From the NCBI GenBank assembly GCA_947649575.1, contig CANSRZ010000005.1:1-64000 (forward strand): a DNA stretch of 64,000 bases, given 5' to 3'. The notes under the pieces were generated by a model, which had not been told where the DNA came from, made no database searches, and saw only the letters and a program-made list of their open reading frames with translations. Position numbers and translations under genes: made by a program. Shown here piece by piece: positions 20,620-36,564 of the stretch; position 1 is the stretch's first letter; each line of letters opens with the position of its first letter. This DNA is from an uncultured Clostridia bacterium. Lineage in GTDB: Bacteria > Bacillota > Clostridia > Christensenellales > UBA1242.

Positions 20620-20643
20620 AAAAGTGGTTTAGCCACTTTTTTA
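20620..20643 (+). terminator. Terminator after glyS
   Basis: AAAAGTGGTTTAGCCACTTTTTT. Confidence 0.8.
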
Positions 20644-20726: not shown

Positions 20727-20757
20727 TTGACAAATCCCCCCCCCGCGGTGGTATAAT
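20727..20757 (+). promoter_or_regulatory. Promoter with a C9 tract in the -35/-10 spacer
   Basis: TTGACA AAT CCCCCCCCC GCGGTGG TATAAT; extended -10 (TGGTATAAT). Confidence 0.8.
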
Positions 20758-20778
20758 GGTGCCGAAGCGAGGGGATAA

Positions 20779-22062
20779 ATGGTTGTTTGGAAAGTTATTT
20801 ATTCGATATTAACATTTGTTATGGGTGCAATGGTGGCATATATGTTTTTGTATGTTGCTATTGGCTTGTTTAAGAAAAAGAAATTTAAAGAGGCAAAAAA
20901 AGAACATACTTATGCTTTTCTGATTGCTGGAAGAAATGAAGAGAAAGTTATTGGTCAACTTATAGACAGTATAAAAAAGAATAACTATGACCAAAGCAAG
21001 CTTAAAATCTTTGTTTGTGCTGACAATTGTGATGCAAAAGACAAAACGGCAAAAATTGCAAGGTCTATGGGAGCAATTGTATATGAAAGGCATGATTTGA
21101 CCAAAGTTAGCAAAAGTTATGCACTTGATTTTCTGCTTTCAAGCATTGGAAATGATTATCCTGACTATCTTCCAGACGGATTTTTTGTGTTTGATGCTGA
21201 TAACTTGCTTGATAAAAATTATATCAAAGAAATGAATAAAGCTTTTGATAACGGTGAGGAGATTATCACTTCTTATAGAGCGTCAAAAAATTATGGAGAT
21301 AGCCTTTTTGCAATGGGGTCATCAATACATTTTATAAGGGCAAGCAGATTTTTGCATACTCCAAGAGTTTTGCTTGGTCTTTCAACAAATGTGACAGGAA
21401 CAGGATTTTTGGTTTCAAGCAAGATTTTAAATCCAAAAGGTGGCTGGAAGTATGGAAAAATAACTGAGGATGCTGAGTTCTCTTGTGATAATTTGCTGAA
21501 AGGGCACAAAGTTTCTTATTGTGATGACGCAATTTTCTTTGACGAACAGCCAGTCTCATGGAAGCAAACTTACAGACAGCGTTTGCGCTGGCAAAAAGGA
21601 ATTTATCAATGTTTTGGAGCTTTTGCATTAAATTTGATGTGTATGTTTTGTGTTAATTTAAATTTTTCTTTCTATGACTTCTTTATGTATTATTCCCCAT
21701 TACCTGTATTTTCAACGACTTGGGCCTTGACAAACGGAGTTGTTGCGCTGGTGCAGAGTATAATATCAATAACAAATGGTGCTCCAATTTGGGGAACTCT
21801 TTTAGTGTTAATAATTGCATTATTAAAATATTTCGCTGTTATGTATGCTGGCTTTTTTGTGTATGGATCGCTCTCAGTTCTTAAAGATTGGAAACGCATA
21901 AAAGCCACTAGAATAAAGAAAATATTATCTATGTTTGCCTATCCATTATTCATGATGACGATAATTCCTATCTGCTTTATTGCAATATTCAAAAAAGTTG
22001 AGTGGAAGCCAATTGTAAGAAATTCAACAGTTACAATTGATGAAGTTGCTGAAAATAAATAA
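20779..22062 (+). CDS. Membrane glycosyltransferase family 2 protein
   Basis: AFLIAGRNEEKVIGQLIDSIKKNNYD, VFDADN, TEDAEFSCDNLLKG, QRLRWQKG, C-terminal TM segments. Confidence 0.9.
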   Translation: MVVWKVIYSILTFVMGAMVAYMFLYVAIGLFKKKKFKEAKKEHTYAFLIAGRNEEKVIGQLIDSIKKNNYDQSKLKIFVCADNCDAKDKTAKIARSMGAIVYERHDLTKVSKSYALDFLLSSIGNDYPDYLPDGFFVFDADNLLDKNYIKEMNKAFDNGEEIITSYRASKNYGDSLFAMGSSIHFIRASRFLHTPRVLLGLSTNVTGTGFLVSSKILNPKGGWKYGKITEDAEFSCDNLLKGHKVSYCDDAIFFDEQPVSWKQTYRQRLRWQKGIYQCFGAFALNLMCMFCVNLNFSFYDFFMYYSPLPVFSTTWALTNGVVALVQSIISITNGAPIWGTLLVLIIALLKYFAVMYAGFFVYGSLSVLKDWKRIKATRIKKILSMFAYPLFMMTIIPICFIAIFKKVEWKPIVRNSTVTIDEVAENK

Positions 22063-22087
22063 AAGCCTTAATGGCTTTTATTTTTTT
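22061..22087 (+). terminator. Rho-independent terminator
   Basis: AAAAGCCTTAATGGCTTTTATTTTTTT. Confidence 0.75.
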
Positions 22088-24957: not shown

Positions 24958-27900
24958 ATGAAAAAGTGGGCTATTTGGAAAACTATTTTGGTTGTTATTG
25001 CCAGTGTTGTTTTTGTGGCTGGTGCAACTGTAGGTGGAGTTTATCTTGCAGGCGGGTTTAAAACAAAATACATAAATCCAGACAGGATTTCTTTTGTGAT
25101 TGATGAAAAATTCTTCAATGCAGAATATGCTCAATATGAAATTTCTGGCTCTGATGAAAACTTGACATTTAACGCAGTTATTGAGGGTGAAAAAGAGGGC
25201 GATGAGATTACTCAAAAAACCGTCACCCTTGACCTTGACGGCGGAAGAATTGACTATGAAAAGAAAACTGTTCGAAACAATGTTGTGGTTGTTCCAAGAG
25301 AGGTTACAATTGGCGAGCCATTTACAATAACTCTTAATAGACAACCTTTAAGAATTTCTGCAAGCGGAGAAATTTCTTTCAATGAACAAGATGCGCTTTT
25401 ATATAACCAGCAAGGACTTCCTGTGCCTTGGGTTGTTGGCGGGTTGACAACAATAACTGCTCGCGCTGAAAACGAGGAAGTTTACACAACTGTTAATCTT
25501 GCAGTTGACACTCCTGTTTATAGCATACATAACACAGCTGTTAACAACGACGGCAGAGAAGTTGATCAGCTTACTATTAATGAAACTTTTGACATAAAAA
25601 CAGTTTTCTATCCTGCTGAAAGTGCGTATCTGTTCAATGACCGCACAAATGACAGGGTTGAAAACAAAAGAGTTAGACGTGCTTTTTATGAAACTGTTAC
25701 AAACAATATCAGAGCTGAATTTGATGAAGAGTTTAACAGATATTTTTCAGCAGTTAATGTAAGCACTGGCAACAGGCTGAATGCTTATGCGTTTAGAGAT
25801 GCAACTGCTCAGATTGAAAATATCAATCAAATAACTAATGACCTTGCAGGCGATTTATCTGCAATTTATAGCAGACTGGTTTCTTTGCTTAATGGTGGAC
25901 AAGTCAGCGTGGCTTCTGGAAGTTTGATTGTGGATATCAATAGAGCTTCAATCAAAACTTTCTCAATTGGCTATGCAGGCTCTTCATATAACATGTATGC
26001 AGGTGAAGATTTTGTTCTTACAATGACTCGCACACCTTATGCAAACGCAACTCTTGATGCAAAAGTAATCTCTTCAAATAATAACGAAGAATTGCCATCT
26101 ATGCTTAGAAATATTGCAATCAATTTTGAATATTCAATTGATAATGGACAAACTTATCAAGATGCTTCAAGAGTGCTTGATATTTTGGGCGGTGAACAGG
26201 TAGAAATAGAGGACAAGACATATTATCTTTCTGACACAACTCCAAAAGATCCAAGATATTGCTTCTGGACTTTAAGAACAAACGGCGAATATGAAATCAG
26301 AATGACTGTTGTTTTGCTTATTGAAGTTGAGGGGCAAGAGGGCGTTTACTCATTGTTCAAAGATGACGGAACTGTTATTAGTTCAAATGTCACATTGTAT
26401 ACAGAAATCAAAGAGGATGAGCCTGTTAAATGGGCAAATGATGACCCAATCAATATTACTCTTGACTTTAACGGAACAAGCACAAAACCTGCTTCAAGAA
26501 CTTTATCAAATCTTGTAAGCATTCCACAAAATAACATTTATAAAACTCCACAATTCTTTGCTCACTTTGCAAACGGGACAACATCTGAGGAAATTGAAAA
26601 AATCTTAGGCAAAGGCAATGCTGATTTGTCACCAGATAATATCAATCATAATGGCACTTATCAATTTGGCAACAGTGAAATGACCTTGTATCCTGTTTCT
26701 AATGAGTTGACCGTTTATGACATCGGCAGATTTGAACTTTATTATGCAACTGTGCAAACTGTTGGGAATAAGTATGTTATTGATGACGATAACAGATATG
26801 TAATTGTTCAACCTGTTGCAACTCCGCTTAATGTTATTGTAACAAAAACATTGTATCAAGATTCAATTTCTGGCATGACTCACAAAACTTCAATGGAACT
26901 TGAAGAGGGTTTGACAAATTATTATTTCCATTCAGGCTCAGCTGACACAATTGAATTGACATTCCAAATTGTAGATGACAGTTATGCAATTTTTGCCGAA
27001 AAGCTTGGTCAAAACAGAATAGAATTTAACATGCTTGCATACAACGCTGATAATGAACTTGTAAGCATTAATGAACATTTCAATAATCTTGATATAAACA
27101 GCATTGTTTATGACGAGGAAGAAAAAACTGTAACTTATATATTGACAATCAAAAGCACATTTAATGAAGTGCTTAGTGATTTGAGAATTGTTTCTGCAAG
27201 TTTAAAAGACCTTGATAATGATGCGCTTGCTCCTTGGATATTTGATTTTACAGAAAATTATTATCTTTATACTCCAATCCCTGAAACAATAGACTTTGCT
27301 GTTAAAGATTTTCAAGCTGGTGATTATCAGCAAAATATAGAGATAAATCAAACTCTTAGCAATGATGCTGACGCAAACTTGACAATTCGTTATGAAGTGA
27401 CAGATGCTCAGACTGGCAGAAAAGAAGTTCGTGAATATAAATCTGTTAAAGAATTTGTTGAACAAAACATCAACGTGATTATCGCTGACCAACATGGCAA
27501 TACTTCAATTTTTGAAGACGATTGGATTTTTGTAACCGATTATGCAAACATTGTAAGAATTTTGCCTGGCGGAAAAGAATTTGCATTCTCATCAACTGAG
27601 GGAGAGCAAAGTGCTAATATTTATGTTAGATACAGCGGAAGTGAAAAAGCTTTGGCAAGCGATATAAAATTAAGCCTTACAGTTAACTCTTCTGGCATTC
27701 AAAGAATTGAATATGACAACTCAACAGAAATTGGCTCGACTGCAGACTTAATAGCATCAGACTCTTTGGATGTTATCTCAATTGGAAAGTATGGCTCAAA
27801 CAAAATCCATCAGGGAGAAACTTCGGCTAACAATGTGATTGACCTTTATAAACTTGTAACTCTTTATTTAGATGCGTCAACAGAATATTTAGGCAAAAAC

Positions 27901-30900
27901 TATAACTTTATTTTGGATTCTCAATATTTGGACGCTCAGGATTCTAATACAATTGTTGACATGTTTGGCGAAAATGGCATGTTGATATTGACATTTAGCG
28001 ATGCCTCTTCAATTCCAGGTTATATAGACGACATCGAACAATATGCAAATGCAATCAAAAATGTATTAAGAACAGCTAAAATTCAATCTATGACAGTTAA
28101 TCATAACTTTGGCAAAAATCATGATATGATTTTCAAAATTGTGGATGCTGGCAACACTGGTGTTGTAAACATCACAATGAACTTTACTTTCTTTGCAAAT
28201 GTAGCAACATCAGGCTCAACCACTTTGGGCACAACAGAAAACCCAATCTATGCGGCAACAAATTATTCTATTGGCAGTGGCAATGGAAGCATTAATATAA
28301 ATTATACAAACGCAGACACAAATGTTGGCGAAGTTGAAAAAAGCAAATCTGTTGCATTAAATGATATACTTTTAAAACAAATCAACAAAAATGGCACAGC
28401 CTATGTTGTTGACAATGGCGAAAGTGGCTATAAAATTGCTTTTGGAGATAGCAACAAAGATATTAGTTCTGCTACAATCACTGTTGTTGGCGGAGTTCCA
28501 GTATTTAGCTTTAATGATTTCTGGAATGAGAGAACATTAGAGTTTCCAGTTGTTTTCTATCTTGAAGAAACAGATAATGATTTTGCTCCTTTTGTTTCAT
28601 TAAACTTTACAATTACAAGAAATATTCAAGTTGTAAATAAAAAGATTGAGGACTCTCAAGAAAACAAGAAATATTATTTGATAGAAAGAAGCTCTGCTGA
28701 AAGTTCAAGCAGTCAGTCTAACAATATAAGAGATTATATTGATATTGACAGAATTGCGCCAAGCAGTGTCGCTGTTCCTGCTGATATCAGATTTACAATG
28801 CAAGAAAATCCTTTCTTCTCAATTGTAAATAATCAAGCAAACAATCAAGCAACTATTTTGAGAGATGAAACAAAATTCCCAGTATTCCCTTATGGCGAAA
28901 CGCAGTTGATTTATAACGTTACAGTGTCAATTGGTGAATCTGCAATTGGCAATGCAGACCTTGTATTTGATAGCGGAATAGACTATGCAGAGATTGCCAA
29001 CAGAATGCTTGCTGTGTCTAATGATGCAAACGGTGATCGTGTAGAAGAAACAGGCAAAGCAAAAGTTGAAACTTACAAAGGAGTAAATTATCTCAAATTG
29101 ACAGAGGGAGCTTGGGAAGTTGATAATAATTCTCAAGGTGCATTCTCAGGTTATAGAGTTAACTTTATAAGACAATATACTGACAAATCTTCTAATAATT
29201 CTATTGAGTATACTTCTATTGAATTTGGTAGAGACGAAACAGACACTGGCAATATTGCTTGCTCTTTCTATGGCTTTGACAATTCAGGCTTGTCTGGACT
29301 TGAAAACGAAGAAAATTTTGTAACCGTCAGAGTTGAAAACAGTGATAGAACATGGCAATATGTGCTTCTTATGCCAATCATAATTTCTCGCGTTGGCTCA
29401 ACTTATGCTGTTTATGATAACAATCAAGAGGCAACTTTGACTGACGTGTTGAATGATAATATTGAGCAGTTGATTGAAAAAGATAAATATATGACAGTTG
29501 ACGCAGGGGATGAAAACATTGTTGTTGCTTCTGAATATATAGATATCAATAATCCTTTTGGCGAAACTGCTCAAAAAGATGCAAAGATTTATTATTTTAA
29601 CAGCAATGGGCAAACAGGAATAATTCTTGAAGAAATCTTTGTTGAGGGCTATTCAAAAACTGGACTTGTCAAAGAAATTGACCACTCTCAAACTGCAACA
29701 AATGGCAATGTGATTTTAAAACTTAATCACCTTGTTGGCGGAGCAAACAATTTTGCTTATGTATTCTTAAAAGCAACAATCAGCGGAATTGGCAACTCTG
29801 GCGGAAGTTTTACTCAGGTTTATTATTATGTAGTCAGAGTTAGACCTGATACTGAACTTATTTCTGCAACTTATCCTTATGCTGACGGCGAAGAACATAT
29901 TTCAATTGATAAAAACGGACTTGGACAATTCAATTCAAAAACTATTGATTTGGATGAAAAATTTGATAAAACAACATTAGCACCAGATTCAACTCGCTAT
30001 ACAATCTCTGTGAATGGACAGGCAGGCGTTTATAAAGATTATCCAGTTTCACATTATGTTAAGAGCGTTAGCGAACAAGGCAGACCAATTGAAAATTGGC
30101 AAGATGTTATTGGTGTTGAATTTAATAATGAAAACAGAACTATGACTTTAAGACCTAAACAAGATGGCGTTTACACTATTGTTGTTACAAGGTCTTATCA
30201 AAATGTTGTTGGCGGTGAACTTGATTATACTTTCATTATAAATGAAGTTTCAAATTATAATCTTGAATTTGTTGACACAGCAATCACTCCTGCAAGAGAT
30301 GAGGTTAACACTTGGATTTGGAATGTAAATAGAAATTCTGCAGATGGACAAAGCCAGTTCCAGACAAGAATAAACCTTAGAGCAGGCGAGAATCAAACAA
30401 GCACAATCGTTGAGGGCGAACTTGCAATTAACGCTATTAATTATGAGGATGCTTGCGAAAAAATCGTTTATAACAATAAAAACAGTGTACAAGATGGAGT
30501 AAATCCTTACAGTTTACTAATTGAACTTCAAGATTATTTAAGTCAAGACCACTCAATTGATGTTTATCTTTACACAAAGTTTGGGCTTCTTGGCACGCTT
30601 AGAATAAACATTAAGGGAAGCGTTGAATTTACAGGAACTCAACTTGGCGAAGTTAATGCAGGCAAAGATGTTGACCTTAAAGATTTCTTAGGCCAAGATA
30701 AAAACAATGCTGAAAACGAGGCAGATAAAGATAGAGGCGTTAAGATTAACGGACAAAAAGCTATATATTTTGTTGGCGCAAATCCTGCTGATTCAGAAAC
30801 TCCTGATTATTATTACAACATAAAATCAGCAAAAATTATTGTTCAAGAAGAGCAAAAAATAAACGGTGAAACCATAATAGTTGAAAAAGAACTTGACAAT

Positions 30901-33900
30901 GTTAAATTTGCTAAGATTGAGAATGACAAATTAATCACTTACTCAAATGCAGAGGATAAAGAAATTACAATCAAATTTGAACTTAACATCTGCTTTAAAG
31001 ATGATAAGGGTAGATTGGTTGAAAAACTGTTTACTTTCAATCACAATGTAAAAATAGCAAAAGACTTAAAAAACAATGACCCAGCAGAGAGCGATATTGA
31101 CTTGTCTGGCAATCCAAACAGCACAAGAATTAACACTGTTAAACGCGCAGGCAATGTTATTGCAGGTGAGGAAATTGTTGTAACTGCAAATGAACTTTTT
31201 AATGCTGGCAACTTGCAAGCAACACAAAACGCATTCTTCTCATGGCGTGCAATCTCTGGCGGAGAAGCATTCAGTGCAGGCTCTTCTGCAGACATAACAC
31301 TTGAAGAACAGCAAGGCAAAATTGTTATCAAGACAAATGACATTGCAGAAAATACAAATTGCACAGCGCTTATCACAGTTTCACTTCGCGGAAACGCAAG
31401 TGAAGAAAGCACAGAATATTGTTCATTCTATGTGAAATATGAGTTCTTGGTTGAAAAGAACACTCTTATTGCAACAAATTATCCAGCTCCACAAGGGCAG
31501 GAACTTGATGTTGAATATATTAGTGACGAAACTATATTTAATGATTTCTTAACAGATTTCGTCAATGCACAAGCTCCATTTGTTAACACAAATGAAAGCG
31601 TAAACAAACCTTTAGACGCTGACAAAAACACAAAAGACTATGACGGCAACGGATTGTTCTCTCGCTTTGATATGAAATATAAGGTTAGAGGAGAAAATAA
31701 GTCAATTGGCTTTGCACCAATAGAAGATGCTAAGTTTGAAGTTAAAATTTCAAGCGCAAACAATGTTTCTATCAGAAAGGTTGTGGACGGACAAGAAGTT
31801 GATGTAGACTCAACAAATAAAGTTTTCTCAGACCAAGACGGAAACAATGTTGTGTTTGAAAACAGAGATGGAATGACTCCAGTTGGTGAATTTGGAATTA
31901 AGTTATATATCGGCAATTGGCGAGAAGTTACATCTTCAACAGGTGAAAAATATTACACAGCCGTTTCTGACGGAACTCAGTCAACAGTGACCTTTATGAT
32001 CACTTGCAATGAAGTTGTTAACTATTACACAATTGTGATTGTGGAAGATGCTTATACTCTTGCAATCAACACAGTTAACAATAATGTTACAGATCAAGGT
32101 GAAATTTTCTATGTTGACAACTTGACAAAATCTGCAAAGATTTTTGAGGCTGACAGAATGGCTACTTTCACTGTTAAACGTGCATCTGAAAATGGTCAGA
32201 TTGGTACAATTATCAAAACTCCATATAAAATGTTGTTTGAAAGCGTAAAAGATGAAGAAGTTGATAACAAACGCGATTCGGTTTACGCATATAAATATGT
32301 GGACTTGCAATTGTCAGATGTCAATATTGGTCAGGCAATTAATGTTGACCTTGGCGAGCCTTTTACAGACTATAACTTTGTTGGACTTTATGTTGCAGAC
32401 AAATTTGCAACTGAGTGGGAAAACTATGTTAACAGCATTGGCTCAACTAAGCCGGAAAATAATCCTGGCTATGCTTATGAGAGATTTACAACATCAGCAA
32501 CAAATTATGATTCTCAAATATTTAGTCAAACTCCAACACTTATTTCAAGACTTGACCTTAGATATAACAATATTAAAGTTGACTATGAAAAATATGCAAG
32601 CACATTGAAAGTTAAAGAAAATGACAATGATGAGGGCATTTCTGCAGGTAATTATGAAGTTCAAGCAGAAAATATTGATAAGTATTTGCAAATTTCTAAA
32701 TTTAGCTTTACTTATCCATATAAGCTTGCTTCAAGTTCAACTACAAAAGAAGTTAAATATGAAGAAAAACCTATTGATATTCGAGGCGTAACTTATTCTT
32801 ATTGCATATCAGTTGACGTTCAAGTTGATGAGGCAATTGAGTTTGTTGAAAAAACTCAGATTGTTGATGGTCAAGAAGTTAAAACTATTACTGCAAACAG
32901 CGAAAGTACAAATGATATTTATGCATATCAAACTCAAAACTTGATTGCAGGTTTAGGGGTTCGTCATCCAAGCTCAGTTAGCAAGCAGTTGGTTTCTGCT
33001 GATGACCTTAAGAGCGAAAACATTGATATTAACCTTGAAATTATGGGCTTGAATGGTGTTTGGCCAACTAATGACGCTTATATTGACGCTATCAGAAATA
33101 TTTACGACCGCAGTGGCGTTACAAACTTTGAGCCTCAGGCAGATAGAAGCAATTCGCTTACAACTTACCTTGAAATTTCTCCAGTTCTGTTTGAAGTTTC
33201 AACAGGTGAAAATACTCCTCGCGATGAAACTATTGACTGGCAAATCAGAGGTTCAGGGGCAAGCAATCAAGGCAATCATGTTATCTTGCATATGAACTAT
33301 GAAGTTAAGGTTACAATTAATGGCGAGCCTAAGACATTCTCAAAAGATTTCTATATTGTTATGAAAGTGTTGCCTGACTATGAAATCACTTATCTTAAAG
33401 TTGGAACGGCGACTCCTGATAATGACGGAAACATAACAAACGCAGGCGAAACAACTATTTATACTATAAGTGAACTTACTACAAATCCTGGTGGCGGGGC
33501 AGGCGAGAATTATGTTAATACAATTCTTGCAAGCAATAGTAACAACGATAATAAGATTGTTTCTGTTGTTCATAAAAATGACCCATCTAAACTTGAAGTT
33601 GGCGCTCAAGGATTTACTTATACTATGAAAATTAATGACACAGATGCAAATGATGAAACAATAACTTATAACAAAGATTTGAACGTTAAATCAAAATTGG
33701 CAAGAATGATTACCACAGGCAATCATTGGAGTGCAAATATTTCTAATAATGTTCAACTTCAACCTGAATACAAATGGACAAGTTCAAATGATAATGACAG
33801 CATTGTTATTATTGCAAAAGAAGTTAAATTTGGTGTTCAATATTACAGATTAACCGCTGTTGATATGTTTGGCTTTAAGTTTGATGTTTGCTTTGCATTG

Positions 33901-36564
33901 TCAAATGTATCTCAAATTAATCCAGCAATCAACTTTGGCAATGACTATTTGCTTGAGGGTGACAGCTTTGATATCGGAACTTATTACAACAAAATCACTC
34001 TTACACCCCAAGACAAGATAAAATCTGGCGAAAATGAAGACAAAATTCCGCTTGTGTCAACTGAGGAAGAGGGCAGAGCGCAGAGTGAAAACGTTTCAAA
34101 AGTTATGAATATTTCAAATTTGACAGCCTATGGATATGATAAACCTTTATATGCCCCAACACCAAATGCAGATGGGGTAACTCCTGAAAATTATGGTACA
34201 TTCTTTACAGGAACAGATTCTAACAACTTGAACGAATTAAACAGCGCATATGTTCTAGTTGATGCGGCAAATAAGTCGTTCTATAAAAATATTCCGATCT
34301 TCTTGCAATTGAGAGTTACTTCAATCAAACTTTATTATAACAAGAAGTTTGTGGGCGAAGTTGTGCTTAATAATGAACAGAAAGCAACAACATTTAACGA
34401 AAAAATCGCATCAAGTGCAGGCATACACTTGTTTAAAGATGCAGAACATGATGCTGGTTTTGAAGATGCAAAAGCAAGATATTTGATGCCAAGATTGCCA
34501 GGATATATCTATGGTTCTAGAAGTGATCAAGAGTTAGAGATGGTTGTCGCTCTTGGATATAATTCAAGCTTATCTCATGGCGGTTCTCTTGAATCAGGCG
34601 CAAATTATGAAGAAACTTATGATCTTAGAACATCAGTAACAGTGCGCAGATCAACTAACATTGTTGACAGAGTTAACAATGTTGTTCGTGACGGACAAAC
34701 CTTTGACGTTAAGGACTATATGAATGTATCTCAAACAACTGGCAACAAGACAACAATGTTTACTGCAAATCAATATGCAATTTATGATGATGCATTGGCA
34801 GTGACAACTCCTGCAAACAGTAATACAGAGTTTAAGTTGACAATCACAAAGACTGTTACAGATAAAAATGATCAAGGAGAAGTTACAGGATCACACCAAG
34901 AAACTGTAATTGAAAATAGATCTGTATTCTGCGTGAATAACAATTCTTATGCAAGTACAGACTATCTGTCACTTTCTGATTTGGCAGAAGTAACGCTTGA
35001 TAAAACTGCTAAGTTTACAATAACTGGCGTTACAGTTAAAGGCAACAATGAAAGCGAAAGCGCAATCATCAAATATGCAGGAAATATAGTAAATACTGAT
35101 GTTGAAACTTCATTAACTAGACTTGATGGCAAAGCTGGCAAATCTAATGCTGATGATGTTATTAATATTGAAGATTCTCGCAAATTGTATAATAATTCAG
35201 TGAATATCACCAAGTCTTATCTTGTGAGCGTGAACACAACAGCAACAACGGGCGAAGAATCAGAAAATTCTCAATATGATGCAAATGCCGAAACTGTTGA
35301 ATATAGATATCCAAGAACATATATGGTGACAGGTTTCTATTACTCATTGAACTATAATTACACTGGTCTTAACCAAATAGTTGATGATTATTTGGAAGTT
35401 GCAGGTGCTGACGGCTCAATCAGTGGAAATAATGTTGAATATATCATTCCGCTAATGGGTTGGACAAAAGGCATGGAACTTACAACAGCTGTCCGCACTT
35501 CAAGTGGAATAAGCACAGCAGTTTATGACACATTCAGTGAAGCAAGCACTGAAAAATTGTATTTTGAAATCACAACCACAACGGTTGGAGGAACTCAAAC
35601 TTCAGGTGCTGCGACAATTGATGAAGATGGAACTATCAGAACAAATCAACGTTTTGATATCAATTCTCACTATATCACAGTTGCAATCAAACAAAAGGTT
35701 TCTGGACTTGATGGTAGATATGCAAACAAAGCAACTGATCAAGACTTTGATTTGACAAGAACAAGAACATTCTCATTCAGATTAAGACCAAAAGCGACAG
35801 ACGCTGACAGTATAACTCTTGGCGAGATAAGCAGTTTGATTAAGTCTGAGGGAAATGAATATACTCTTGCATTAAGACATAGAAGTTATGTTAATGGCGA
35901 TATTAAGTATGAAAACAGACTTGTTAACTTTACTGCAAGCGGTTTGGGAAATGTAAAAGCATATATCACAAACACGACCTTGTGGGCAGGCGAAAGCGCA
36001 ACAGGTGTTAATGAAACTTCTAATTCAGGCACATTTGACGGAGTTTATATTGATAAACCTGATAAAGGTGGTATATCATTTACTTCAAGATATGTAAGAG
36101 GCAAAACATTCACCTCAGATGAAGTGCTTGTTAAATTTATTAAAGATCAAACATATTCTAATGCAATAGTAACAAGTACTGATTACGAAAATCCTACACT
36201 AGGCACATATTATTTTGATAAGAGCGAGGGAAAAGCTCATGCTACAGGAAATGAGGGCTCGGATGACGAATATGAAATTATGAGTTTCCCTGCAGGCACA
36301 TTGCATTATGAACAAAGAATCTTGTTAAGCTCAAATCTTAATGCGGTGGGGAAAGCCAATACAACAGGTTTAGTTGAATTTAAGAATGAGCCTCCTAAAA
36401 CTGTTCAAACTGTTCTTGCAAAGACTTGTTATAAGGTTTTTGAAGATGAAGAGCAAAAACTGGTAACATACATTTTTAGAGATTATACTGGCATATACTA
36501 CACAATTCTTTCTAACTTTGCGATTGTGGATGCAAATTCACTTTCGCAAAGGGTGGAAAGTTAG
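24958..36564 (+). CDS. Giant (3868 aa) membrane-anchored, presumably extracellular protein
   Basis: Single uninterrupted ORF, AAAGGAG RBS, N-terminal signal/anchor (WKTILVVIASVVFVAGATVGGVYLAGG), T/N/S/V-rich beta-type composition. Confidence 0.9.
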   Translation: MKKWAIWKTILVVIASVVFVAGATVGGVYLAGGFKTKYINPDRISFVIDEKFFNAEYAQYEISGSDENLTFNAVIEGEKEGDEITQKTVTLDLDGGRIDYEKKTVRNNVVVVPREVTIGEPFTITLNRQPLRISASGEISFNEQDALLYNQQGLPVPWVVGGLTTITARAENEEVYTTVNLAVDTPVYSIHNTAVNNDGREVDQLTINETFDIKTVFYPAESAYLFNDRTNDRVENKRVRRAFYETVTNNIRAEFDEEFNRYFSAVNVSTGNRLNAYAFRDATAQIENINQITNDLAGDLSAIYSRLVSLLNGGQVSVASGSLIVDINRASIKTFSIGYAGSSYNMYAGEDFVLTMTRTPYANATLDAKVISSNNNEELPSMLRNIAINFEYSIDNGQTYQDASRVLDILGGEQVEIEDKTYYLSDTTPKDPRYCFWTLRTNGEYEIRMTVVLLIEVEGQEGVYSLFKDDGTVISSNVTLYTEIKEDEPVKWANDDPINITLDFNGTSTKPASRTLSNLVSIPQNNIYKTPQFFAHFANGTTSEEIEKILGKGNADLSPDNINHNGTYQFGNSEMTLYPVSNELTVYDIGRFELYYATVQTVGNKYVIDDDNRYVIVQPVATPLNVIVTKTLYQDSISGMTHKTSMELEEGLTNYYFHSGSADTIELTFQIVDDSYAIFAEKLGQNRIEFNMLAYNADNELVSINEHFNNLDINSIVYDEEEKTVTYILTIKSTFNEVLSDLRIVSASLKDLDNDALAPWIFDFTENYYLYTPIPETIDFAVKDFQAGDYQQNIEINQTLSNDADANLTIRYEVTDAQTGRKEVREYKSVKEFVEQNINVIIADQHGNTSIFEDDWIFVTDYANIVRILPGGKEFAFSSTEGEQSANIYVRYSGSEKALASDIKLSLTVNSSGIQRIEYDNSTEIGSTADLIASDSLDVISIGKYGSNKIHQGETSANNVIDLYKLVTLYLDASTEYLGKNYNFILDSQYLDAQDSNTIVDMFGENGMLILTFSDASSIPGYIDDIEQYANAIKNVLRTAKIQSMTVNHNFGKNHDMIFKIVDAGNTGVVNITMNFTFFANVATSGSTTLGTTENPIYAATNYSIGSGNGSININYTNADTNVGEVEKSKSVALNDILLKQINKNGTAYVVDNGESGYKIAFGDSNKDISSATITVVGGVPVFSFNDFWNERTLEFPVVFYLEETDNDFAPFVSLNFTITRNIQVVNKKIEDSQENKKYYLIERSSAESSSSQSNNIRDYIDIDRIAPSSVAVPADIRFTMQENPFFSIVNNQANNQATILRDETKFPVFPYGETQLIYNVTVSIGESAIGNADLVFDSGIDYAEIANRMLAVSNDANGDRVEETGKAKVETYKGVNYLKLTEGAWEVDNNSQGAFSGYRVNFIRQYTDKSSNNSIEYTSIEFGRDETDTGNIACSFYGFDNSGLSGLENEENFVTVRVENSDRTWQYVLLMPIIISRVGSTYAVYDNNQEATLTDVLNDNIEQLIEKDKYMTVDAGDENIVVASEYIDINNPFGETAQKDAKIYYFNSNGQTGIILEEIFVEGYSKTGLVKEIDHSQTATNGNVILKLNHLVGGANNFAYVFLKATISGIGNSGGSFTQVYYYVVRVRPDTELISATYPYADGEEHISIDKNGLGQFNSKTIDLDEKFDKTTLAPDSTRYTISVNGQAGVYKDYPVSHYVKSVSEQGRPIENWQDVIGVEFNNENRTMTLRPKQDGVYTIVVTRSYQNVVGGELDYTFIINEVSNYNLEFVDTAITPARDEVNTWIWNVNRNSADGQSQFQTRINLRAGENQTSTIVEGELAINAINYEDACEKIVYNNKNSVQDGVNPYSLLIELQDYLSQDHSIDVYLYTKFGLLGTLRINIKGSVEFTGTQLGEVNAGKDVDLKDFLGQDKNNAENEADKDRGVKINGQKAIYFVGANPADSETPDYYYNIKSAKIIVQEEQKINGETIIVEKELDNVKFAKIENDKLITYSNAEDKEITIKFELNICFKDDKGRLVEKLFTFNHNVKIAKDLKNNDPAESDIDLSGNPNSTRINTVKRAGNVIAGEEIVVTANELFNAGNLQATQNAFFSWRAISGGEAFSAGSSADITLEEQQGKIVIKTNDIAENTNCTALITVSLRGNASEESTEYCSFYVKYEFLVEKNTLIATNYPAPQGQELDVEYISDETIFNDFLTDFVNAQAPFVNTNESVNKPLDADKNTKDYDGNGLFSRFDMKYKVRGENKSIGFAPIEDAKFEVKISSANNVSIRKVVDGQEVDVDSTNKVFSDQDGNNVVFENRDGMTPVGEFGIKLYIGNWREVTSSTGEKYYTAVSDGTQSTVTFMITCNEVVNYYTIVIVEDAYTLAINTVNNNVTDQGEIFYVDNLTKSAKIFEADRMATFTVKRASENGQIGTIIKTPYKMLFESVKDEEVDNKRDSVYAYKYVDLQLSDVNIGQAINVDLGEPFTDYNFVGLYVADKFATEWENYVNSIGSTKPENNPGYAYERFTTSATNYDSQIFSQTPTLISRLDLRYNNIKVDYEKYASTLKVKENDNDEGISAGNYEVQAENIDKYLQISKFSFTYPYKLASSSTTKEVKYEEKPIDIRGVTYSYCISVDVQVDEAIEFVEKTQIVDGQEVKTITANSESTNDIYAYQTQNLIAGLGVRHPSSVSKQLVSADDLKSENIDINLEIMGLNGVWPTNDAYIDAIRNIYDRSGVTNFEPQADRSNSLTTYLEISPVLFEVSTGENTPRDETIDWQIRGSGASNQGNHVILHMNYEVKVTINGEPKTFSKDFYIVMKVLPDYEITYLKVGTATPDNDGNITNAGETTIYTISELTTNPGGGAGENYVNTILASNSNNDNKIVSVVHKNDPSKLEVGAQGFTYTMKINDTDANDETITYNKDLNVKSKLARMITTGNHWSANISNNVQLQPEYKWTSSNDNDSIVIIAKEVKFGVQYYRLTAVDMFGFKFDVCFALSNVSQINPAINFGNDYLLEGDSFDIGTYYNKITLTPQDKIKSGENEDKIPLVSTEEEGRAQSENVSKVMNISNLTAYGYDKPLYAPTPNADGVTPENYGTFFTGTDSNNLNELNSAYVLVDAANKSFYKNIPIFLQLRVTSIKLYYNKKFVGEVVLNNEQKATTFNEKIASSAGIHLFKDAEHDAGFEDAKARYLMPRLPGYIYGSRSDQELEMVVALGYNSSLSHGGSLESGANYEETYDLRTSVTVRRSTNIVDRVNNVVRDGQTFDVKDYMNVSQTTGNKTTMFTANQYAIYDDALAVTTPANSNTEFKLTITKTVTDKNDQGEVTGSHQETVIENRSVFCVNNNSYASTDYLSLSDLAEVTLDKTAKFTITGVTVKGNNESESAIIKYAGNIVNTDVETSLTRLDGKAGKSNADDVINIEDSRKLYNNSVNITKSYLVSVNTTATTGEESENSQYDANAETVEYRYPRTYMVTGFYYSLNYNYTGLNQIVDDYLEVAGADGSISGNNVEYIIPLMGWTKGMELTTAVRTSSGISTAVYDTFSEASTEKLYFEITTTTVGGTQTSGAATIDEDGTIRTNQRFDINSHYITVAIKQKVSGLDGRYANKATDQDFDLTRTRTFSFRLRPKATDADSITLGEISSLIKSEGNEYTLALRHRSYVNGDIKYENRLVNFTASGLGNVKAYITNTTLWAGESATGVNETSNSGTFDGVYIDKPDKGGISFTSRYVRGKTFTSDEVLVKFIKDQTYSNAIVTSTDYENPTLGTYYFDKSEGKAHATGNEGSDDEYEIMSFPAGTLHYEQRILLSSNLNAVGKANTTGLVEFKNEPPKTVQTVLAKTCYKVFEDEEQKLVTYIFRDYTGIYYTILSNFAIVDANSLSQRVES

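Follow-up and report, generated by a model that had tools for sequence, protein, structure and literature searches.

A C9 tract in the promoter spacer of a membrane glycosyltransferase gene, one of many probably phase-variable tracts in a genus of uncultured gut Clostridia

The DNA analyzed here (the window) is a stretch of 64,000 nucleotides from an uncultured Clostridia bacterium (assembly GCA_947649575.1, contig CANSRZ010000005.1). Its forward strand carries a gene for a family-2 membrane glycosyltransferase (GT) of 427 amino acids (20779..22062), the product of which contains membrane segments and matches the general GT2 domain PF13641 (E = 1.1e-18). The nearest NCBIfam models, EpsU (79 bits, cut-off 700) and PgaC_IcaA (43 bits, cut-off 422), scored far under their curated cut-offs, and the protein was thus not classified as a curated EpsU or PgaC exopolysaccharide enzyme; a role in surface polysaccharide synthesis is presumed. 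A terminator-like hairpin located 3' of glyS (20620..20640, + strand; 9-pair stem, T-rich tail, z = -2.7 against shuffled sequences) divides glyS from the GT gene, and inspection revealed a hairpin followed by a T-run just 3' of the GT stop codon (about 22061-22079, absent from the list produced by the scanner). The GT gene apparently forms a stand-alone unit. Further downstream, positions 24958-36564 (+ strand) are occupied by one open reading frame of 3868 codons with an N-terminal membrane segment, probably encoding a giant exported protein.

Upstream of the GT gene, on the same strand, the -35 box TTGACA (20727..20732) and the -10 box TATAAT (20752..20757) both match the consensus exactly. 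They are separated by a spacer of 19 nt composed of AAT (20733-20735), nine C residues (20736..20744) and GCGGTGG (20745-20751), ending in the extended -10 motif TGG (20749..20751, with TG at 20749-20750). A probable ribosome-binding site, GAGGGG (20769..20774), is located 4 nt 5' of the start codon. The initial annotation had described the promoter and its C9 tract correctly to the base. Scanning the + strand from the glyS terminator to the GT start at 20779 yielded no promoter with a spacer of 16-18 nt, and the 19-nt TTGACA/TATAAT pair is therefore the only candidate in this interval. A run-length scan showed that the C9 tract is the sole C/G run of at least seven in the window, the next longest being C5 and G5; a first-order model predicts 0.011 C9 or G9 runs where one was observed. 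The annotation was thus right that the window contains no comparable run; the genome as a whole, however, contains about 24 tracts of 8-11.

These tracts are distributed over a genome of 1.09 Mb in nine contigs, and most of them are exactly nine bases long. Runs of at least C9 or G9 number about 23, compared to 0.19 expected from the first-order model. For 18 of the 24 tracts (one a weak match) a -35/-10 pair flanks the run on one strand, while the same geometry was found at 5.5% of random positions and at 6.8% of positions 30-160 bp away. Two related genomes, G035 with 16 of 31 tracts and G036 with 15 of 28, showed a similar enrichment over a background of 5-7%. Tracts are therefore present far above chance and are sited in promoters or reading frames.

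The promoter tracts are of two sorts. The first has C on the promoter strand (TTGACAAAT-C9-G...TATAAT) and comprises five loci including the GT gene, with spacers of 15, 15, 16, 19 and 19 nt; a further C-strand promoter with C7 is the sixth. The second is present in twelve copies on the opposite strand (TTGACAC-G9-11-ATTTGC-TATACT or near variants), and all twelve precede paralogous genes for large surface proteins with an N-terminal anchor (contigs C1, C3, C4, C6 and C9; loci L315-L330). The three of these proteins that were tested all contain GLUG and Listeria-Bacteroides-type repeats. A mobile repeat as the source of the twelve near-identical upstream regions was ruled out, since each one directly precedes a paralogous surface-protein gene. 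Three more reading frames carry tracts themselves (L317, L318 and L333). The product of L333 is a confirmed GLUG protein paralogous to the others with a G9 run near its start, in the signal-anchor region; the frame of the start codon stops 12 codons past the tract and the long GLUG frame is a different one, as expected for an OFF state.

C-strand promoters, in contrast to the G-strand ones, include cytosolic targets: a small gene linked to dnaG, a protein with Sigma70_r4 and alpha-CTD parts, and NUDIX-like or hydrolase-like enzymes. At the dnaG region and the other non-surface genes, tuning or a fixed element may be the better fit. At the dnaG-linked locus (L320, G000:C8:3500-8000), the C9 promoter combines a spacer of 19 nt with an extended -10 and is followed by a gene of 62 codons and then dnaG, an unexpected target for a switch. 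At L332 (148-897) a C9 promoter with a 15-nt spacer precedes a gene for a 230-amino-acid protein consisting of a sigma-70 region-4-like part and an RNA polymerase alpha C-terminal domain, a possible transcription regulator. Contig C7 begins exactly at a C9 run (L067, G000:C7:1-60) followed by sequence with a seemingly higher G+C content than elsewhere in the genome, and this may be a chimeric contig end.

Across the genus, the pattern TTGACA-N1-6-C7+-N2-12-TATAAT was detected at 111 sites in 46 of 112 genomes, while the same pattern read backwards, used as a control, gave no match in these 112 genomes. In the genome studied here, the spacer measures 17 nt in 36 of the 58 consensus promoters that lack a tract, in agreement with the earlier proposal that loss of two C residues would bring the GT promoter to its optimal length. 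The spacers of the 111 C-tract promoters are distributed differently: 63 measure 15-16 nt, 17 measure 19-20 nt and only 9 measure 17 nt, and the usual C9 state thus misses the optimum by one to three bases. An extended -10 (TGn) is present in 13 of 21 long-spacer promoters compared to 11 of 63 short-spacer ones (distinct sequences; Fisher p = 2e-4, with the related sequences not fully independent). A single spacer optimum shifted by poly-C geometry was rejected, since it fails to account for the coexistence of a short mode (15-16) and a long mode (19-20), the latter with TGn.

Slipped-strand mispairing would add or remove C residues and thereby change the distance between the -35 and -10 boxes, moving a promoter toward or away from its optimum. 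The GT promoter as assembled lies off the 17-nt optimum, and its extended -10 would probably preserve some activity. Loss of one or two C residues would be predicted to raise transcription and gain of one to lower it, and envelope glycan synthesis would then vary from cell to cell. The extended -10 points to graded tuning more than to a clean on/off toggle.

The strongest evidence for phase variation comes from the same gene in related species, where GT orthologues adjoin glyS on its 3' side wherever the upstream sequence was read. The syntenic GT carries a tract in seven of eleven related species, located in the promoter in one of them and in the coding region, at no fewer than three positions, in six. 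The promoter of the G111 gene (73% nucleotide identity) reads TTGACT-C9-ATACCTTTGT-TAAAAT and shares the C9 run, the 19-nt spacer and TGn with the GT promoter described here, while the bases flanking the run differ on both sides. Among the coding tracts, the G8 of G135 is at codons 2-4, those of G085 (G10), G089 (G7), G073 (G9) and G095 (G9) lie close to residue 160, and the G9 of G061 lies close to residue 177. The reading frame is broken in G085 and G089, with the enzyme halves in different frames that join at the tract, while the frame is intact in G073, G095 and G061; length differences among relatives thus switch the GT frame, which is split with G7 or G10 and open with G9. Over 3.5 kb, G089 and G073 share 93.5% identity, and within the GT coding region they differ by a single indel, the tract itself. 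No tract was found in the promoter or gene of the GT orthologues of G024, G035, G036 and G119. It is difficult to account for tracts placed repeatedly and independently in one GT gene without invoking selection for variable expression.

Length differences were also seen between the sister species G035 and G036, compared with one genome per species: eight of 18 paired tract loci differ by one or two bases, among them five of the ten in promoters. Missing mismatch repair as a cause of instability was ruled out, since MutS and MutL are both present and intact; slippage may therefore be moderate.

Taken together, the promoter sequence and geometry, the enrichment of tracts, their recurrence at the orthologous gene and the frame-splitting length differences make it likely that the C9 tract is a length-variable homopolymer in the sigma-70-type promoter of a stand-alone membrane GT gene, in which slippage would alter the spacing. 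It would be one of many such sites, which in this genome lie mostly in promoter spacers and otherwise in coding regions, mainly those of surface proteins. Such runs probably constitute a genus-wide device for switching genes up and down through random length changes. The proposal that slippage tunes or toggles the GT gene thus gains support by comparison, from the tracts at this gene in seven of eleven species and the two split frames, with tuning favored over the toggle. Several observations point the other way: intact MutS and MutL should dampen slippage, some targets are not surface genes, four orthologues are free of tracts, and the run is nine bases long at 77 of the 111 genus sites.

Constancy of length would also be expected of a fixed promoter element without any switch, with the C9 run bound by a regulator or giving the spacer its shape and length changes selected against. 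This reading, which we consider unlikely, is consistent with the G directly 3' of the tract at 90 of the 111 sites, the distance of three bases between TTGACA and the tract at 68 of the 111, the retention of C9 and the 19-nt spacer in G111 despite different neighboring bases, and the resemblance of some targets to housekeeping genes. However, tracts of equal length are also present in coding regions, where they would be useless as promoter elements and split reading frames, and paired tracts are unequal in length between the sister species. A peak at nine is likewise found in Campylobacter, the tracts of which are known to switch (53% at 9 and 26% at 10; PMC6321876). Still less probable, and already disfavored by the placement of the tracts, is that they are a neutral by-product of biased slippage, in which C/G runs grow and persist wherever they do little harm. 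Runs of a single nucleotide mutate readily everywhere, and the genus includes genomes with few or no tracts as well as one with 37 C9 matches on one strand only; but placement is far from random, since 50-75% of tracts have promoter geometry against a background of 5-7% and different species carry independent tracts in one and the same GT gene. A homopolymer error is scarcely credible, even though these are metagenome assemblies in which a run of nine can be miscalled by one base, given that the arrangement recurs in 46 genomes, including the syntenic G111 site, with no match to the reversed pattern.

Phase variation through promoter spacing has a precedent in Neisseria meningitidis. The -35/-10 spacer of porA (and fetA) contains a homopolymer of about 9-11, with an optimum spacing of 17 nt and lower transcription at other lengths (van der Ende, 1995, in PMC7864442; PMC2791445), and shortening of the 17-nt spacing of porA abolishes transcription (van der Ende, 1995, in PMC7864442). 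The GT promoter resembles porA in its homopolymer of at least eight between the two boxes, where small length changes would bring the spacing closer to its optimum or take it further away. In porA, however, the tract is poly-G, the product is an outer-membrane porin, the host is a proteobacterium and the effect was shown experimentally, while here a C tract, a 19-nt spacer, an extended -10, a GT and many loci are involved and the effect is predicted. The initial annotation had named opc as the precedent. The poly-C tract in the opc promoter does control the transcription level (Sarkari, 1994, cited in PMC3960869). Published positions of this tract differ, however: over the -35 region in one paper (PMC7864442) and between -35 and -10 in another (PMC2791445). 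This makes porA the better precedent; whichever placement holds, the -35 box of the GT promoter is an intact consensus.

Other systems share single features. Campylobacter jejuni has a genome-wide set of C/G tracts with the same peak at nine, often in genes for surface structures, but there coding tracts dominate and intergenic ones are found in 20% of gene groups (PMC6321876), whereas here 18 of 24 show promoter geometry. In the tpr genes of Treponema pallidum, poly-G length near the promoter alters transcription of surface proteins; the tprL tract, however, overlaps the -10 region and leaves the spacing unchanged (PMC7864442). The pilus of the gut commensal Bifidobacterium breve is under ON/OFF control by replication slippage, in a different phylum and on a different target (PMC9187656).

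Outside the family but within the same order, the C-tract promoter pattern is rare (8 of 363 genomes). Among the matches listed from a public species collection, most belong to uncultured gut Clostridia and to Mucispirillum. In Mucispirillum, a member of another phylum, many TTGACA-C9-TATAAT promoters were seen, with a spacer of nearly always exactly 15 nt and often 5' of predicted lipoprotein or exported-protein genes (loci L152, L154, L160, L163, L165, L171, L177, L187, L191, L213, L215, L217, L221, L240, L244 and L247). In viral contigs, no tract-length variants of the surface-protein promoter were found, and the C-tract pattern gave one match. The literature searched, which took in few subscription journals, contained no report of phase variation for either these Clostridia or Mucispirillum.

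We tentatively propose a genome-scale phasome in a genus of uncultured gut Clostridia with genomes of about 1 Mb, and separately in Mucispirillum. In this proposal, which could prove right but on which we hold some doubt, promoter tracts would equal or exceed coding tracts in number, and the usual C9 would leave the spacer either 1-2 nt below or 2-3 nt above the 17-nt optimum; most cells would thus express the genes at a low level and rare slippage would raise expression. The mechanism is of a known kind, but the literature searched seems to contain no account of it in this host, on this scale or with an off-optimum set point. Spacer phase variation would thereby extend from a few Neisseria genes to a genus of very small-genomed, uncultured gut bacteria, in which it seems to be a main mode of control for surface proteins and an envelope GT. 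Consensus assemblies display only one state for many such genes and should be read with this in mind. Cell-to-cell variation would be predicted in these gut microbes, and it would be readable directly from existing metagenome reads.
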